Assembly: GCA_947645355.1 (NCBI GenBank)
Contig: CANSCI010000007.1
Location: 1-52,825, forward strand
Reading direction: 5' to 3'
Source: an uncultured Dorea sp.
GTDB lineage: Bacteria > Bacillota > Clostridia > Lachnospirales > Lachnospiraceae
Length of the DNA stretch: 52,825 nucleotides
Shown in pieces: positions 3,221-25,521 of the stretch; the first letter of the stretch is position 1, and each line of letters starts with the position of its first letter. The notes beneath the pieces were generated by a model, which worked only from the letters and a program-made list of their open reading frames with translations, was not told the origin of the DNA and searched no databases. The position numbers and the translations under genes are program-made.

Positions 3221-3324
3221 ATTAAATTACAGTTTCATGCAACACTTGACTTGGTTTTTGACTCTAATATACAAAGTCATGACAATGAAGTGCCAGAAGC
3301 CATATGTGGCAGGGAGGGCAGGAT

Positions 3325-3801
3325 ATGAGATGTGATGTGGATACATTTGCACAGATGTATGAAGCCATATACAAGGACCTGTACCGTTTCGCTCTGTGTA
3401 TGATGAAGAATACTCAGGATGCAGAGGATGCCGTCAGCGAAGCGGTTTTGGCAGCTTATGAAAATATCCGCAAGCTTCGTGATGAGAAAGCATTTAAGAG
3501 CTGGATATTTACAATATTGGCAAATACATGCAGGAAAAAATTAAAGTTATTGAACACGAAATCCGGCGTTGAACAGGAGGGGGCTGTAAAGCAGCCGCAG
3601 CAGTGCCCGGACTATGCACTTGCACTGGACGTAAAGAAAGCGTTTTTTATTCTGTCCGAGGAGGAGCAGACGATCGTAGGGCTTTCTGTATTTGGCGGTT
3701 ATAACAGTAAGGAAATCGGCGGAATGCTTAAGCTTAATGCTAATACTGTGCGGTCGAAAAGAAGCCGCGCCCTTGAGAAGATGGAATGTATATTGAGATG
3801 A
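3325..3801 (+). CDS. ECF-type RNA polymerase sigma factor
   Basis: A 158-residue sigma-70 family protein with only regions 2 and 4. Region 2 (about residues 8-70) contains YRFALCMMKNTQDAEDAVSEA and a SWIFTILANTCRKKL tail. Region 4 (about 100-155) contains LSEEEQTIVGLSVFGGYNSKEIG followed by a recognition helix ending in RSKRSRALEKM. It would direct RNA polymerase to a small regulon. The ATG at 3325 is chosen because GGGAGG (3311-3317) sits 7-8 nt ahead of it; the upstream ATG at 3304 has no such site. A possible promoter (TTGACT, 16-nt spacer, TATACA, from 3245) precedes it. The next gene encodes a membrane protein and could hold the sigma factor inactive, but a zinc-finger anti-sigma domain is not visible. 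Confidence 0.9.
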   Translation: MRCDVDTFAQMYEAIYKDLYRFALCMMKNTQDAEDAVSEAVLAAYENIRKLRDEKAFKSWIFTILANTCRKKLKLLNTKSGVEQEGAVKQPQQCPDYALALDVKKAFFILSEEEQTIVGLSVFGGYNSKEIGGMLKLNANTVRSKRSRALEKMECILR

Positions 3802-3871
3802 TACATAGACAGGAATGAAAAATGAAATGTATATTGAATGATATACAGGCATGAATGAAAGGAGTATGACT

Positions 3872-5812
3872 ATGGATAAAAGAGAACAGCATATTCTGAA
3901 CATGATAGAGGAAAAGACCGGCAATATCTCCGTGCCGGAAGGACTGGCGCCGGAACAGATGGCAGAGAAGCTTGCAGGAAAAGAGCAGGGCAGCAGGAAA
4001 AAAAGAAAGCGCAGGAGGCTGTATCAGCTTGCAGGATTGGCGGCGGCAGGTATTGCAGTCGTATCCGGGATCTGCCTGTACGGCTACATGGACCAACAGG
4101 AGGATGTGGTGATGCCGGCGCGGGAAGGCACGGTCAGCCGTACGATTGCAAGCGCAGGCAGTTATGATGAGATCTATAAATATATCGAAGCATATAATGC
4201 TTCATTGAATCAGGAGAATGGGATTTTTGATCTTTTCTCATCTACGAAAGAGACCGCACAGGTGGAAGACAGTGCAGTGGCACAGAGGGCGTCAGACGGC
4301 GGCGCCGGAGAAGCCAAACAGTCAGGCACAGGCGGCTATTCTGCTACAAATACCCGGCAGCAGGGGGTGGATGAAGCGGATATTGTGAAGACAGACGGAA
4401 TCTATCTCTATGTTATGGCAGACAGCGGAGAGGAGCTGTCTATCGTGGATACAAGAGGATCCATGAAGGAAGTGGGAAAGATATCTTCGGGGAAAAATAA
4501 TTACATTGAGGAATTCTATATGCTTCCCGAAGAAAAGAAAGTGGTTCTGATCTGTTCTTATAAGTCAGATTCCTATGCCAGAGATATAGAACCATATGCT
4601 CCGGCGTCTGACAGATATGAAAACAGCGGGCGGACAGAGGCAGTTACTTATGATGTCGGTGATGCAGCTAACCCGACGGAAATCGGGAGGATCACGCAGA
4701 GCGGATACTATGACTCTTCGAGAGTTTCTGACGGACATCTGTATCTGTTCAGCCGATACAGTGCCTGGGGGGATATCCAGAGAAATGATCCGAAGACATA
4801 CATTCCGATGGTGGGAGATGAAGTCCTGCCAAAAGAGAATATTTTTCTTCCGCCGTTTCCGGAGGGATGTCAGTATGAGGTGGTGACGGCTGTTGACCTG
4901 GCAGAGCCGGACGAGGTCACAGACAGCAAGGCTATTTTTACTAAGGGCGGCAATCTGTATGTAAGCAATGAGAACATTTATTATTATGAGGAGGAGTGGA
5001 AGGAGTACAGCGATACGTGTACAACAACGATCCGGAAGCTTTCGTATTGTGACGGGGAGCTGAAGGCTGAGGGGCAGGGGTCTGTCAAGGGCTATATCAA
5101 TGATTCTTTTTCTATTGACGAATACGACGGAAGGCTCAGGGTCGTCACAACAGTAGGTGAGGACGGAAATGCGGTATATGTGCTGGATGAAGGACTGAAG
5201 ATCACGGGAAAGATCGAAGACCTTGCAGCGGGCGAGAGAGTGTATTCTGCCAGATTTTTTGGTGAAACAGGGTATTTTGTTACGTTTCGTGAGACGGATC
5301 CGCTGTTTTCTGTAGATTTTTCCGACCCGGAGCATCCGAAGGTACTGGGCAAACTTAAGATTCCTGGATTTTCAGAGTATCTGCATTTTTATGGGGAGAA
5401 TAAGCTGTTGGGGATCGGAATGGATGTTGATGAAGAGACCCAGGTGACAGGAGGAGTAAAACTCAGCATGTTTGACATCTCAGATAAGGGGGATGTGAAA
5501 GAAATAGATAAATATGTCATTGACAATCTGTATGGTACGGATGTTGCATATGATTATAAGGGTGTTTTGGCCGATGCCCGGAAGAATCTGATCGGATTTG
5601 CAGGATATGCAGACGGCGGGCAGAAATATTACCTGTTCAGCTACGATGACGAGAAAGGGTTCCGGTGCCATATTGAAGAGATGACAAACGGAAGAGGGAT
5701 CCGCGCCCCCAGAGGAGTGTATATTGAAGAGGTGCTGTATGTGGTGCAGGGAAATGTGATAGAGGCATATAGCCTGGAGTCGTACCAGAAGATAGACGAC
5801 TTGATCCTGTAA
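3872..5812 (+). CDS. Membrane-anchored beta-propeller protein, possible partner of the sigma factor
   Basis: A 646-residue protein. Residues 1-45 are cytoplasmic and charged (KKRKRRR), a single membrane span follows (AGLAAAGIAVVSGICLYGY), and the rest is predicted outside the cell. The large C-terminal part matches the style of the bacterial 'secreted protein containing C-terminal beta-propeller domain' family (PF09826), with GVDEADIVKTDGIYLYVMA at its entry, a hallmark of that family. The start at 3872 is preferred because AGGAG (3860-3864) lies 7 nt upstream; the ATGs at 3851 and 3866 are badly placed. With the ECF sigma gene 70 nt upstream it may be a membrane regulator whose N-terminal tail binds sigma, but this rests on context alone. 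No protease or ligand site is recognised. Confidence 0.8.
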   Translation: MDKREQHILNMIEEKTGNISVPEGLAPEQMAEKLAGKEQGSRKKRKRRRLYQLAGLAAAGIAVVSGICLYGYMDQQEDVVMPAREGTVSRTIASAGSYDEIYKYIEAYNASLNQENGIFDLFSSTKETAQVEDSAVAQRASDGGAGEAKQSGTGGYSATNTRQQGVDEADIVKTDGIYLYVMADSGEELSIVDTRGSMKEVGKISSGKNNYIEEFYMLPEEKKVVLICSYKSDSYARDIEPYAPASDRYENSGRTEAVTYDVGDAANPTEIGRITQSGYYDSSRVSDGHLYLFSRYSAWGDIQRNDPKTYIPMVGDEVLPKENIFLPPFPEGCQYEVVTAVDLAEPDEVTDSKAIFTKGGNLYVSNENIYYYEEEWKEYSDTCTTTIRKLSYCDGELKAEGQGSVKGYINDSFSIDEYDGRLRVVTTVGEDGNAVYVLDEGLKITGKIEDLAAGERVYSARFFGETGYFVTFRETDPLFSVDFSDPEHPKVLGKLKIPGFSEYLHFYGENKLLGIGMDVDEETQVTGGVKLSMFDISDKGDVKEIDKYVIDNLYGTDVAYDYKGVLADARKNLIGFAGYADGGQKYYLFSYDDEKGFRCHIEEMTNGRGIRAPRGVYIEEVLYVVQGNVIEAYSLESYQKIDDLIL

Positions 5813-6679: not shown

Positions 6680-6708
6680 ATTATATTCTGTAAAAAATAG
6701 TTTGTCAA
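6680..6708 (-). promoter_or_regulatory. bioY promoter
   Basis: Read on the minus strand, TTGACA (6708-6703) and TATAAT (6685-6680) are separated by exactly 17 nt, a full consensus sigma-A promoter. Transcription would begin near 6673, leaving a leader of about 97 nt that holds a 7-bp stem (CCGGGCA with TGCCCGG). Confidence 0.85.
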
Positions 6709-6863: not shown

Positions 6864-6892
6864 TTGACAAATAAACGAAGCGGTGCTATTAT
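6864..6892 (+). promoter_or_regulatory. Promoter of the candidate large RNA
   Basis: TTGACA (6864-6869), a 17-nt spacer and TATTAT (6887-6892) make a near-consensus promoter. The predicted start is near 6899. No ribosome-bound gene of normal length follows before the terminator at 7469-7510. Confidence 0.8.
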
Positions 6893-6898
6893 GATATC

Positions 6899-7511
6899 AA
6901 TCCAAAGGAAATCCGATAATAATAAATAAAGAAATCTGACGAGAAAGGATTTCTTTATAAAAGACCCAAGAAAAAGGGTACATTTAAAAAGTTATTATTA
7001 ATGGAGACGGAGTATTTCATATGTCGGTGAGATACTGAACTTGGATAATAAAAGGAAGGAGGCTTAATCCGTTGGACAGTGCAAAAGAAACAATAACTCA
7101 ATATGTCGGTGGTATGGCAGATAAAAGTTCCCGTAAGTTAAGCCTTTACCATAGAATATAAGCCGGTAATAAAGATGAAAAGAGAAGTCGGAGAAGATAA
7201 AACCGGAAGAGAAAGATTTACATCTGCGGACATATTGAAAAGAATACCACAAAAAATTCAAAGAGATTAGACGATGTGTAAAGAAACATTACCTGATCTG
7301 TCAGATTTATATGAAACATTGAGGGATATAAATAATGATATCAAAGATTGATAAATAAGATCCGAGACTTTGAGTTATAAATCGTTTATGAAAAGAAAAC
7401 GGTTCAGGGAACAGGTAGTCAAAAGAGAATCCTCCGATTATAGAATAAAAAATGATAAAATTCAATATAAAATAGCCATTATAATCAAGAGAGATTGTAA
7501 TGGCTATTTTA
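6899..7511 (+). ncRNA. Candidate large structured non-coding RNA (about 610 nt), possibly ROOL-like
   Basis: The interval runs from a strong promoter to a strong terminator without a convincing protein gene. Complementary segments are plentiful: 6928-6936 with 6948-6956 (9 bp), 6964-6967 with 6976-6979, 6917-6925 with 6992-7000 enclosing both, 7060-7067 with 7138-7145 (8 bp), 7098-7107 with 7229-7238 (10 bp), 7305-7312 with 7326-7333 (8 bp) and 7381-7387 with 7397-7403. The 7060/7138 and 7098/7229 pairings cross, which implies a pseudoknot or alternative folds. Loops are rich in A and G. Length and setting resemble ROOL RNA, a roughly 580-nt Firmicute RNA of unknown role, but I cannot confirm the family. 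Features of tmRNA, RNase P RNA and 6S RNA are absent. Three tiny reading frames (7072-7161, 7175-7270, 7274-7351) lie inside, the first with a fair ribosome site, so a degraded or micro-peptide locus remains possible. Confidence 0.6.
7469..7511 (+). terminator. Terminator of the candidate RNA
   Basis: AAAATAGCCATTA (7469-7481) pairs perfectly with TAATGGCTATTTT (7498-7510), and the stem extends inward through TAATC/GATTG. The A-tract and T-tract flanks make it a strong terminator for the plus strand. Confidence 0.85.
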
Positions 7512-7637: not shown

Positions 7638-7666
7638 TTGACAATACGCAGGCCTTATGATAAACT
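7638..7666 (+). promoter_or_regulatory. Promoter of the acidic TPR/ATPase gene
   Basis: TTGACA (7638-7643), a 17-nt spacer and TAAACT (7661-7666). Transcription would begin near 7673, after the ATG at 7657, so that ATG cannot be the start; this supports the TTG at 7723. Confidence 0.75.
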
Positions 7667-7722
7667 TATACCAGAAAAAATATAACAAAATACTATATTC
7701 CATATATTTTGAGGTGAGAGAT

Positions 7723-10700
7723 TTGGATAAATATGAATATCGGGTAAAAACGGAACAAATGCTTGAGTACGCAGAGGGGAAGCAGTACAAAAAGGCAATG
7801 GAGATCGCGGATACGATCGACTGGCGAAGAGTAAAAAATGCATCTATGTTGAATACGGTCAGTGAGATTTATGAATTTAACGGGGAGTTTCAGAAGGGCC
7901 GTGACATTTTGTTCGTAGCTTACGACCGTGCGCCGGGGAGCAGAAAGATTATATACCGGCTGGGGCTTTTGGCTCTTAAGGTGAAGGATATAGAGGAGGC
8001 GTCGGATTGTTATGAAGAGTTTGTAAAGATAGCCCCGAAGGATCCGAACCAGCACATTTTAAAATATAAGATCCTGAAGGCACAGCGGTCTCCGCTTGCG
8101 GAACAGATTGCCGCCCTGGAGGATTTTAAAAAGGCTGAGTATGTTGAAAAGTGGGCGTATGAGCTGGCAAGTCTGTATCAGGAGGCAGGCATGACGTCAA
8201 AATGTCTGGAGGAATGTGATGATCTGATCTTGTGGTTCAGCGAAGGAAAATACGTCTATCAGGCAATGGAACTGAAGATGCGGTATAAGCCGCTTACGCC
8301 TCTTCAGCAGGAAAAATATGACAGCAGGCCCGGTGCGCCGGCAAGGCCTAAGGTGTCAAGGACGCAGAATCTGAAGACTCAGCAAAAGGCAAGTTCTGTC
8401 ATGCAGACGGAAGAACTTTCTGTAAAGAAAGAGAAAGAGGAAGAGGAAGCGCCTGTACTTGAAGATGCAAAACCGGAAGAAGCGATCATGCCGGAAGAGG
8501 CGGATCTACATACTGACGAAGAACCGGAGGCGTTAAGAAGACAGCCGGAGGTTAAGCGGTCGCCGATCACAAAGGTGGTGAAGGGTGCAACGTTGGAAGA
8601 AGCCCTGGCAAATGGGGTTGCGGTTGCAAGCGGCCTGAATCTTAACATAGAAGAAGAGTCTATGGTTGAGAGGGAAGAGGAACTCCTGACAGGCGTTCAG
8701 ATGAAGATTGAGGATATTCTGCAGGAATGGGAAGAAAAGCAGAAAGTGAATGCAGATGCCATTGAGGAACAAAAAAAGAAGGATGAGGAGAGGCTTAACC
8801 GAGAACGTGAGGAAGCACTGAGACGCAGAGAGGTGCAAAGGCTGGAAGCCGAACAGAAAGCGGCAAAAGCAGAGGCCGAGAGAAGGGCGAAAGAGGAAGA
8901 AGAAAGAGCAAGAGAGGAAGAGAAAAAGGCAAAAGAGGAAGAGGAGGCCAGGAAGGCAGCGCAGATAGAGGTGCTGAAAAAAGCCGCGAAGCCGCAGGCC
9001 GCGAAACCGGATGAAAAGGAGCAGAAGAGGATATTAGAAAGCAAGACACAGAGATTGCCGGATGATATCCTTGAGTTGGTTGAGCAGCTGGAAAGCAGAG
9101 TCGGCGGAGCAGATATAGAGGAAGACATGGATGATGATGACGACCTTGAAGCAGAGGTTTTTGGCGGCGCCGAAAATGATTTTGCAGGCGGGGACTTTGA
9201 CGTGTCGGACGATTTTGAGGCAGAGGAAGATTACGCGGAAGCTGTTTATGATGAGCAGGATTTTGCAGATGATGATTTTGCAGAAGACTTTGCAGAGGAA
9301 GATTATGCGGAAGGGTTCGAGCCGGCAGAGTATGATGAAGACGATTTTGCAGATGATGAAGAACCGGTAGAGGATTCTGTTCCGGAGGGATTGGAAGCAG
9401 AAGAGGACTTTGTGGAGGAGGATCTGGAAGAAGAAGATTTTGCAGAGGAAGATCTGGAAGAAGATTTCGTGGAGGAGGATCCGGAAGCAGAAGGTTTTGC
9501 GGAGGAGGATCTGGAAGAAGAGGACTTTGCGGAAGAAGATCTGGAAGAAGACTTTGCGGAGGAGGATCTGGAAGAAGAGGACTTTGCGGAGGAAGATCTG
9601 GGAGAAGAGGACTTTGCGGAAGAAGATTTTGAGGAGGCTGAGTTCGAGGAAGAAGATTATGAAGAGGAAGGATATATAGAAGACTTTGGAGAGGATGAGT
9701 TTGATTCGGAAGGCTTAGAGGATGAGTTTGACGAGGACGAGTTCGACGAGGATGAGTTTGATGAGGACGAGTTCGAGGAAGAAGAGTTTGAAGAGGAGGA
9801 TTATCCGGACGAGGACGAATTTGAAGAAGAAGAGGAAGAAGACTTTGACGTGGAGAAGTTCCTTGCAGAAAATATCCCTGGGAAGTCTGACGCAGACCAG
9901 TCTCTCGAGATTGAAGAGCCTTCAGAGGCTGAGATCCAGAAGAGGATCAAGAAGTCTAAGGGCGGCGTTCCGTTTGATACAGGTTTTGTTGTTACCGGGC
10001 GTTATGACTTAAGCGCGACCAGCGAGATCGGCCTGAAAGCCGGACTTACGGAGGAGCAGAAGAAACTGTTCTCATATTTTGTTCCGGTGCGCGGTATGAG
10101 TGAGCAGATCGTGGAGGTACTTGACAATGACCGGCGGGCACAGAGGGAAGGAACATCCAAGACAGGCAACCTGCTTGTAATTGGAAGAAAAGGTTCAGGG
10201 AAGACAGTGTTGGCTGTGGATATAGTAAAAGCGATCCAAAAGCAGAGGAACTTAAAGCAGGGCAAGGTTGCGATCGTGACCGGTGATTCCCTGAATAAAA
10301 AGGAACTTGCCAATATTATCCAGAAGCTGCGCGGCGGGGCAATTATTATCGAAAAGGCAGGGAAGCTGAATTCAAGGACGATCAAAGAGTTGAGTTACCT
10401 GATGGAGAAGAAGACAGGAGAGATGCTTTTCGTACTGGAGGATCAGAGGAAGCCGCTTGAGAGGATTCTTACGGCAAATCCGGACTTTAAGAGAAAATTT
10501 ACTTCCAGGATGGAGCTTCCGGTATTTATTAACGATGAGCTTGTGACCTTCGGACAGACCTACGCAAAAGAAAATGGCTATAAACTGGATGAACTTGGTA
10601 TTCTTGCGCTGTACAGCAGAATTGATGTTATGCAGCGGGAGGATCATGCGGTGACAGTTGCCGAGGTAAAGGAAATTATGGATGAAGCGATTGCCCATTC

Positions 10701-10800
10701 CCAGAAGGCAAATGTGAAGCATCTGGCAAGGCGGATGTTTGGTAAAAGTACGGACGAATCCAACAGGGTGATCCTGAAGGAAGAGGATTTCAAAATCTAA
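7723..10800 (+). CDS. Acidic TPR and P-loop ATPase-domain protein
   Basis: A 1025-residue protein starting at TTG 7723, with GAGGTGA five nt upstream and a promoter at 7638-7666. Residues 1-220 are helical and TPR-like (for example EEASDCYEEFVKIAPKDPN). About 330-450 is a Lys/Glu-rich probable coiled coil. About 463-715 is almost entirely Asp/Glu/Phe in tandem repeats such as FAEEDLEEED and FDEDE. The C-terminal 290 residues hold a P-loop domain: Walker A GRKGSGKT near 821, then GGAIIIEKAGKLN where a Walker B acid pair would be expected, and conserved helices to the end. Proteins of this build are seen in Lachnospiraceae as TPR or AAA-family proteins of unknown role. The altered Walker B suggests weak or no hydrolysis. 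It is monocistronic, with a strong terminator after the stop. Confidence 0.75.
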   Translation: MDKYEYRVKTEQMLEYAEGKQYKKAMEIADTIDWRRVKNASMLNTVSEIYEFNGEFQKGRDILFVAYDRAPGSRKIIYRLGLLALKVKDIEEASDCYEEFVKIAPKDPNQHILKYKILKAQRSPLAEQIAALEDFKKAEYVEKWAYELASLYQEAGMTSKCLEECDDLILWFSEGKYVYQAMELKMRYKPLTPLQQEKYDSRPGAPARPKVSRTQNLKTQQKASSVMQTEELSVKKEKEEEEAPVLEDAKPEEAIMPEEADLHTDEEPEALRRQPEVKRSPITKVVKGATLEEALANGVAVASGLNLNIEEESMVEREEELLTGVQMKIEDILQEWEEKQKVNADAIEEQKKKDEERLNREREEALRRREVQRLEAEQKAAKAEAERRAKEEEERAREEEKKAKEEEEARKAAQIEVLKKAAKPQAAKPDEKEQKRILESKTQRLPDDILELVEQLESRVGGADIEEDMDDDDDLEAEVFGGAENDFAGGDFDVSDDFEAEEDYAEAVYDEQDFADDDFAEDFAEEDYAEGFEPAEYDEDDFADDEEPVEDSVPEGLEAEEDFVEEDLEEEDFAEEDLEEDFVEEDPEAEGFAEEDLEEEDFAEEDLEEDFAEEDLEEEDFAEEDLGEEDFAEEDFEEAEFEEEDYEEEGYIEDFGEDEFDSEGLEDEFDEDEFDEDEFDEDEFEEEEFEEEDYPDEDEFEEEEEEDFDVEKFLAENIPGKSDADQSLEIEEPSEAEIQKRIKKSKGGVPFDTGFVVTGRYDLSATSEIGLKAGLTEEQKKLFSYFVPVRGMSEQIVEVLDNDRRAQREGTSKTGNLLVIGRKGSGKTVLAVDIVKAIQKQRNLKQGKVAIVTGDSLNKKELANIIQKLRGGAIIIEKAGKLNSRTIKELSYLMEKKTGEMLFVLEDQRKPLERILTANPDFKRKFTSRMELPVFINDELVTFGQTYAKENGYKLDELGILALYSRIDVMQREDHAVTVAEVKEIMDEAIAHSQKANVKHLARRMFGKSTDESNRVILKEEDFKI

Positions 10801-25479: not shown

Positions 25480-25521
25480 GATTCTTGCGTTACAGAGGAA
25501 GTAATGTAAATGAATAAAGAT

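Follow-up and report, generated by a model that had tools for sequence, protein, structure and literature searches.

Positions 6899–7511 (+ strand) of the window, the whole 52,825-nt stretch of DNA that was analysed, are predicted to hold a free-standing, independently transcribed structured RNA gene. In the window it is about 613 nt long, as delimited by its fold, its homologues and its promoter. Comparison of sequences indicates that it belongs, with many relatives, to a previously uncatalogued family of large structured RNAs, one that is unlisted in Rfam 15. Nearly every member carries GGAGG about 9 nt ahead of the start codon of a short reading frame, and this frame enters two helices (H2 and H3) of a predicted triple pseudoknot. 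The frame seems to be upheld and the peptide hardly so, as if being read through outweighed what is being read. We propose that the RNA acts in trans and that its fold is gated by the binding and transit of ribosomes, a reading to which we would give a probability of somewhat less than one half (about 0.45).

Transcription would start at about position 6899, downstream of a sigma-A promoter (6864–6892, + strand). The promoter scan recognized TTGACA (6864–6869) and TATTAT (6887–6892) at a spacing of 17 nt, with 11 out of 12 consensus matches and an extended TG. This bears out the near-consensus promoter reported earlier in a sequence-only reading of the same DNA. Near-consensus boxes were present upstream of 125 out of 127 distinct members, compared with 12 out of 127 shuffled upstream sequences. 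The same reading had placed a strong terminator at the other end, and this holds for the stem: an intrinsic terminator hairpin of 19 bp (7468–7511, + strand; arms 7468–7486 and 7493–7511) folds with −23.8 kcal/mol and a z-score of −8.3. Its U-tail, however, is weak, which explains why the terminator pattern scanner did not list 7468–7511. The RNA as a whole yielded z-scores against shuffled sequences of −8.3 with the terminator (20 shuffles) and −3.95 without it (100 shuffles). Among 102 members, the distance from the start site to the T-run has a median of 729 nt and ranges from 309 to 1138 nt. Additionally, a perfect 12/12 sigma-70 consensus promoter lies on the minus strand at 6680–6708; it is directed towards bioY and diverges from the RNA promoter.

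At gathering thresholds, no Rfam 15 family was matched on the RNA, be it in the whole window or in 17 near and 14 diverse homologue loci. This result covers OLE, GOLLD, HEARO, the raiA motif, 6S, tmRNA and all other families in Rfam 15. Matches obtained at E up to 5 (ctRNA, RT-14, miRNA, CRISPR-DR) were weak and at chance level, and were rejected. The ROOL class, suggested by the sequence-only reading together with a search of the ROOL, GOLLD and OLE models, had to be abandoned once that search was run. The ROOL model (RF03087, threshold 99.1 bits) was unmatched in the RNA's own genome up to E 10. As a positive control, it did detect ROOL in 2 out of 200 genomes of the host's family, neither of them the present one, at 358 and 341 bits. 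Neither is the genomic context of the ROOL type: instead of a phage, a prophage or a tRNA island, we observed a fixed chromosomal locus beside an aconitase and an AAA/TPR gene, and the sole tRNA in the window lies at 25521. A search of journal articles found no description of the RNA; parts of it may figure among the 3161 Human Microbiome candidates of Fremin and Bhatt (PMC8040213).

A phage origin was also considered and rejected, as blastn against phage sequences gave only weak matches covering at most 11% of the query, and the single IMG/VR match lay at a contig edge. That contig (L252:1-1860, IMG/VR UViG_2585427817_000006) also carries, on its minus strand, a tyrosine-recombinase-like ORF (715–1860), the start of which is about 180 nt past the 3′ CCTCCGA of the RNA copy. 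The 3′ end of the RNA gene thus seems to have served there as the insertion site of a prophage.

Among 397 genomes of the host's GTDB family, blastn found close homologues in other genera, with E down to 1e-72; matches at E 0.001–0.1 were disregarded, being mostly to the AT-rich terminator. A covariance model of a 222-position core detected the RNA in 67 out of 397 genomes and 59 out of 334 genera, and a broader model, built from 53 members, in 57 out of 250 genomes of the family. The RNA is present in about 23% of the sampled genera of this family, which is Lachnospiraceae to judge from the names of the pattern-matched relatives. Outside the host family, no match was found: the class-level sample of 226 genomes yielded two matches, both within that family, and the order-level sample of 295 genomes yielded same-family matches only. 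When about 85,000 species genomes were scanned with a sequence pattern, 113 places came up. The titles listed there include those of Mediterraneibacter, Dorea, Faecalicatena, Schaedlerella, Muricomes, Merdimonas and Claveliimonas (Lachnospiraceae), as well as of uncultured Clostridia.

Members differ in size as well. Between 7312 and 7322, the window copy is missing about 120–150 nt that its closest relatives possess, and in the relatives this subdomain begins with GUUAUAGAAGRAAUAACUUAAUA. Short members (L111, L112 and L117 among them), in which only about 250–315 nt lead to CUCCGA, are without the whole middle domain and keep the core and the long-range helix P6.

In the window, the neighbours of the RNA are genes for an aconitase-family protein, an ECF-type sigma factor, a beta-propeller protein, BioY and an AAA/TPR-like ATPase. 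Even distant members are found at the same locus: aconitase precedes the RNA at 43 loci, and at 95 out of 145 loci the AAA/TPR gene follows it in the same orientation, from which it follows that the RNA is inherited with the chromosome. The position of the ATPase gene could also mean that the RNA is its cis-acting leader or attenuator. We consider this the least probable of the alternatives. The RNA ends at a terminator of its own and a separate promoter-like site (7638–7666) belongs to the ATPase gene, a different gene lies downstream at many loci, and the first large frame after the RNA is on the opposite strand at 15 out of 102 loci. Moreover, a cis-regulatory leader or uORF attenuator would hold a fixed position before one gene in the same transcript, which is not what we observed, and shared ancestry of the locus, with its upstream aconitase, explains the adjacency.

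Two observations on the neighbouring proteins may be added. The AAA/TPR ATPase (7657–10800) has a long Glu/Asp-rich middle with tandem EEDFAEEDLEE-like repeats. At 3304–5812, the ECF-type sigma factor is followed by the beta-propeller protein (PF09826), the two possibly being a sigma/anti-sigma-like pair; in many relatives, the PF09826 gene ends directly upstream of the RNA.

The helices listed in the sequence-only reading are present base for base, and the two long ones (7060–7067/7138–7145 and 7098–7107/7229–7238) are perfect and cross. Conservation, covariation, promoter and synteny also support its broader claim, that the RNA is large, structured and pseudoknotted. The core consists of three helices, all on the + strand. 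H1 pairs AGGCUUA (7060–7066) with UAAGCCU (7139–7145), H2 pairs UCAAUAUGUC (7098–7107) with GACAUAUUGA (7229–7238), and H3 pairs GUGGUAU (7109–7115) with AUACCAC (7244–7250). The three are mutually crossing, with their arms in the order H1, H2, H3, H1′, H2′, H3′. The 5′ arms of both H2 and H3 lie within the reading frame, and the 3′ arm of H1, which is an anti-Shine-Dalgarno sequence, lies within the 3′ part of the frame.

For H2, double-sided changes were observed at 9 out of 10 pairs in 53 sequences. They amount to 62 cells, compared with 19.5 in shuffles and at most 15 in slid versions of the helix. In 122 sequences, 99.9% of H2 pairs are canonical, compared with 94.8% when the arms are swapped between sequences. 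H1 switches between AGGCUU/AAGCCU and AGGUC/GACCU forms among members, and throughout the core alignment its anti-SD CCUU does not vary. H3 is little informative on covariation because it is nearly invariant.

Additional helices surround this core (all + strand). The 5′ hairpin P1 (6928–6956; AAAGAAAUC / GAUUUCUUU) has an apical loop, UGACGAGAAAG, that is kept in 43 members. It folds with a z-score of −5.5, and its pairs (loop UGACGAGAAA) are canonical at 0.872, compared with 0.497 after swapping of the arms (n = 43). The P4 stem (7163–7206) joins CCGGU (7163–7167) to ACCGG (7202–7206); it occurs in a CCGG form here and in a CCAG/CUGG form in other members. Its loop holds the 5′ arm of P6, UCGGAG (7188–7193), whose long-range partner CUCCGA (7432–7437) is part of UCCUCCGA, a possible alternative partner of the Shine-Dalgarno sequence. 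The canonical fraction in P6 was 0.983, compared with 0.951 (maximum 0.962) for swapped arms (n = 93), and a subfamily with a frame of 15 codons is without either arm. P5 (7274–7289) is a hairpin with a conserved loop, AUGU-GUAAAGAA-ACAU, found in 99 members, in which 0.818 of the pairs are canonical, compared with 0.728 for swapped arms. An apparent second ORF with its start at ATG 7274 was set aside, since it coincides with the P5 hairpin and its frame is not preserved in the relatives read by eye.

A stricter, phylogeny-aware screen gave a different picture. In a simplified R-scape-type test (G-test with APC and a tree-based null) on 59 full-length sequences, no individual pair was significant at E<0.05, because the deep split between the two subfamilies inflates the background. 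Helix-wise arm-swap and slide controls were used in its place. Thus, the covariation check suggested along with the original list of helices came out in favour of H2 (9 out of 10 pairs), P1, P6, P4 and H1 at the level of helices, but of no single pair in the stricter screen. As read from these alignments, the covariation evidence is helix-level and is strong mainly for H2 and P1.

The sequence-only reading had seen no convincing gene between promoter and terminator. This is correct as far as long ORFs are concerned, but it overlooked a conserved ORF of 29 codons with its own Shine-Dalgarno sequence. The ORF (7072–7161, + strand) starts with TTG, ends with TAA at 7159–7161 and encodes MDSAKETITQYVGGMADKSSRKLSLYHRI. 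GGAGG (7058–7062, + strand) precedes the start codon by 9 nt, and its 3′ part belongs to the 5′ arm of H1. In 124 out of 127 distinct members the start codon is ATG (72), TTG (43) or GTG (9), and it stays confined to these three across about 21 changes. The distance from the start codon to the H2 arm is 24, 27, 30 or 33 nt. On the tree, it has changed in length at least 13 times, and it is out of frame in two members only (L084 and L090). Between codon 2 and the end of H3, frame 0 contains 3 stops in total, compared with 108 and 120 in the other frames. It is open in 121 out of 124 members, whereas the other two are open in 36 and 35.

There are exceptions to this pattern. Seven members have lost the start or have a broken frame (L082, L084, L086, L087, L090, L092 and L094), and the predicted translation of the frame is not universal in the family. 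Both out-of-frame copies, L084 and L090, come from one genome that carries two distant copies of the RNA core (G083:C12:353096-353289 and G083:C7:23813-24020), which hints at a relaxed constraint after duplication.

The open frame bears on whether the RNA could be an architectural noncoding RNA like ROOL or OLE, that is, a scaffold, a cage or an RNP, with the SD-like purine run and the open frame being incidental. Its size, pseudoknots, A-rich joints and invariant P1 hairpin loop would agree with such a role, and the purine run does double as the 5′ arm of H1. However, the contrast of 3 stops with 108 and 120, the three-step length changes and the restricted start codons would not be expected by accident. 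We therefore regard this explanation as unlikely.

For the peptide itself, the picture is different. No clear purifying selection was detected outside the pairing arms, where pN/pS is about 0.9–1.1: in the linker, all close pairs together gave 1.1 and a set of 42 independent pairs gave 0.86, and the value after the pseudoknot was 0.84. The length of the ORF varies from 15 codons (MGTTDSHHQYESGIA) to about 36, the peptide C-terminus differs between subfamilies, and in the 15-codon subfamily the frame ends ahead of the anti-SD. No Pfam or NCBIfam family was matched by the peptide. The N-terminal stretch is biased in composition, being rich in Ser, Thr, Ile and Val, and this may leave room for some selection at the peptide level.

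The main rival reading is a peptide-centred dual-function RNA of the RNAIII/delta-haemolysin or SgrS/SgrT type, in which the peptide would be functional and the RNA would regulate by base pairing. In RNAIII/hld, SgrS/SgrT and VcdRP, the peptide sequence is functional and conserved. Conservation of the Shine-Dalgarno sequence, start codon and open frame would agree with this, as would the biased amino-acid usage, a recurrent QY..G motif, and the accessible UGACGAGAAA loop and 3′ UCCUCC, which could pair with Shine-Dalgarno sequences. Still, the motif (QYV.GM) needs no explanation at the peptide level, because the nucleotides that encode it, CAAUAUGU and GUGGUA, are the pairing arms of H2 and H3. 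The near-neutral pN/pS outside the motif, a length of 15 to 36 residues, the subfamily-dependent C-terminus and the lack of a Pfam or NCBIfam family argue against it further, and we consider such a peptide possible but doubtful. That the RNA is simply the mRNA of a small protein, its 3′ UTR being long and structured, is very improbable. This reading would account for an SD and an ORF transcribed from a strong promoter, but conservation and covariation span the whole RNA, and the peptide is the part that varies freely.

We favour, as the simplest, the reading in which ribosomes gate the fold. The RNA would act in trans, because both its promoter and its terminator are its own and no dependent gene is fixed beside it. 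While the RNA is closed, H1 would pair the Shine-Dalgarno sequence with the anti-SD about 75 nt downstream, and H2 and H3 would tie the first half of the frame to sequence beyond its 3′ end. The 3′ UCCUCCGA may be a second anti-SD; the nested minimum-energy fold pairs it with the SD. Going by the usual extent of ribosome footprints, the start of H2, 24–33 nt past the start codon, would be just outside the reach of an initiating ribosome. With part of the SD paired in H1 and H2 starting at this distance, a ribosome could bind only once H1 opens, and an elongating ribosome would have to unwind H2 and H3, plus H1 in most members. Ribosome loading would then change the state of the RNA, and its activity would follow the supply of ribosomes or the rate of translation, with little importance left to the peptide.

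More tentatively, the family might be a new class of RNA with the ribosome as its ligand. A sequence-indifferent frame would be kept open only for ribosome entry and the unwinding of the triple pseudoknot, and the fold of a trans-acting RNA would serve as a readout of translation capacity. The RNA is chromosomal and vertically inherited, and the genera that have it, such as Mediterraneibacter, Dorea and Faecalicatena, are common in the gut. An open frame that appears to be selected while the peptide hardly is, together with an SD masked by the same predicted fold, offers a built-in handle on the mechanism. Through it, the question of what an ornate RNA of this size senses could be approached directly by mutation.

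To our knowledge, few bacterial RNAs are as large and as conserved (ROOL, GOLLD, OLE, raiA), and almost all of these have been described as noncoding and of unknown function; we know of no maintained ORF in raiA-motif RNA (ModT). Like ROOL (RF03087; PMC12286853), the present RNA is about 600 nt long, has an ornate pseudoknotted fold, occurs in Bacillota and is free-standing. ROOL is found in phages and tRNA islands, whereas our RNA occupies a fixed chromosomal locus, maintains a reading frame and has no sequence or covariance-model match to ROOL. OLE (PMC12054373, PMC10898510) is likewise a conserved structured RNA of about 600 nt from anaerobic Bacillota, and its binding of ribosomal protein bS21 is likewise a link to translation. 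The two differ in that our RNA has no Rfam match and the OLE abstracts describe no maintained ORF. With raiA-motif RNA, which is trans-acting and abundant (PMC11706538), it shares being a conserved chromosomal structured RNA of Clostridia, but there is no Rfam match here and the architecture is different. RNAIII/hld, SgrS/SgrT and VcdRP (PMC8672173) also combine a structured RNA with a short ORF (29 aa in VcdRP); unlike in these dual-function RNAs, the peptide here is nearly neutral, the frame is kept, and it threads a conserved pseudoknot. Finally, the uORF-type motifs odc1 and uORFC (PMC8632094) resemble our RNA in that the RBS is sequestered in a structure containing a short ORF. These motifs are cis-regulatory leaders, whereas the RNA described here has no fixed dependent gene and ends in its own terminator.
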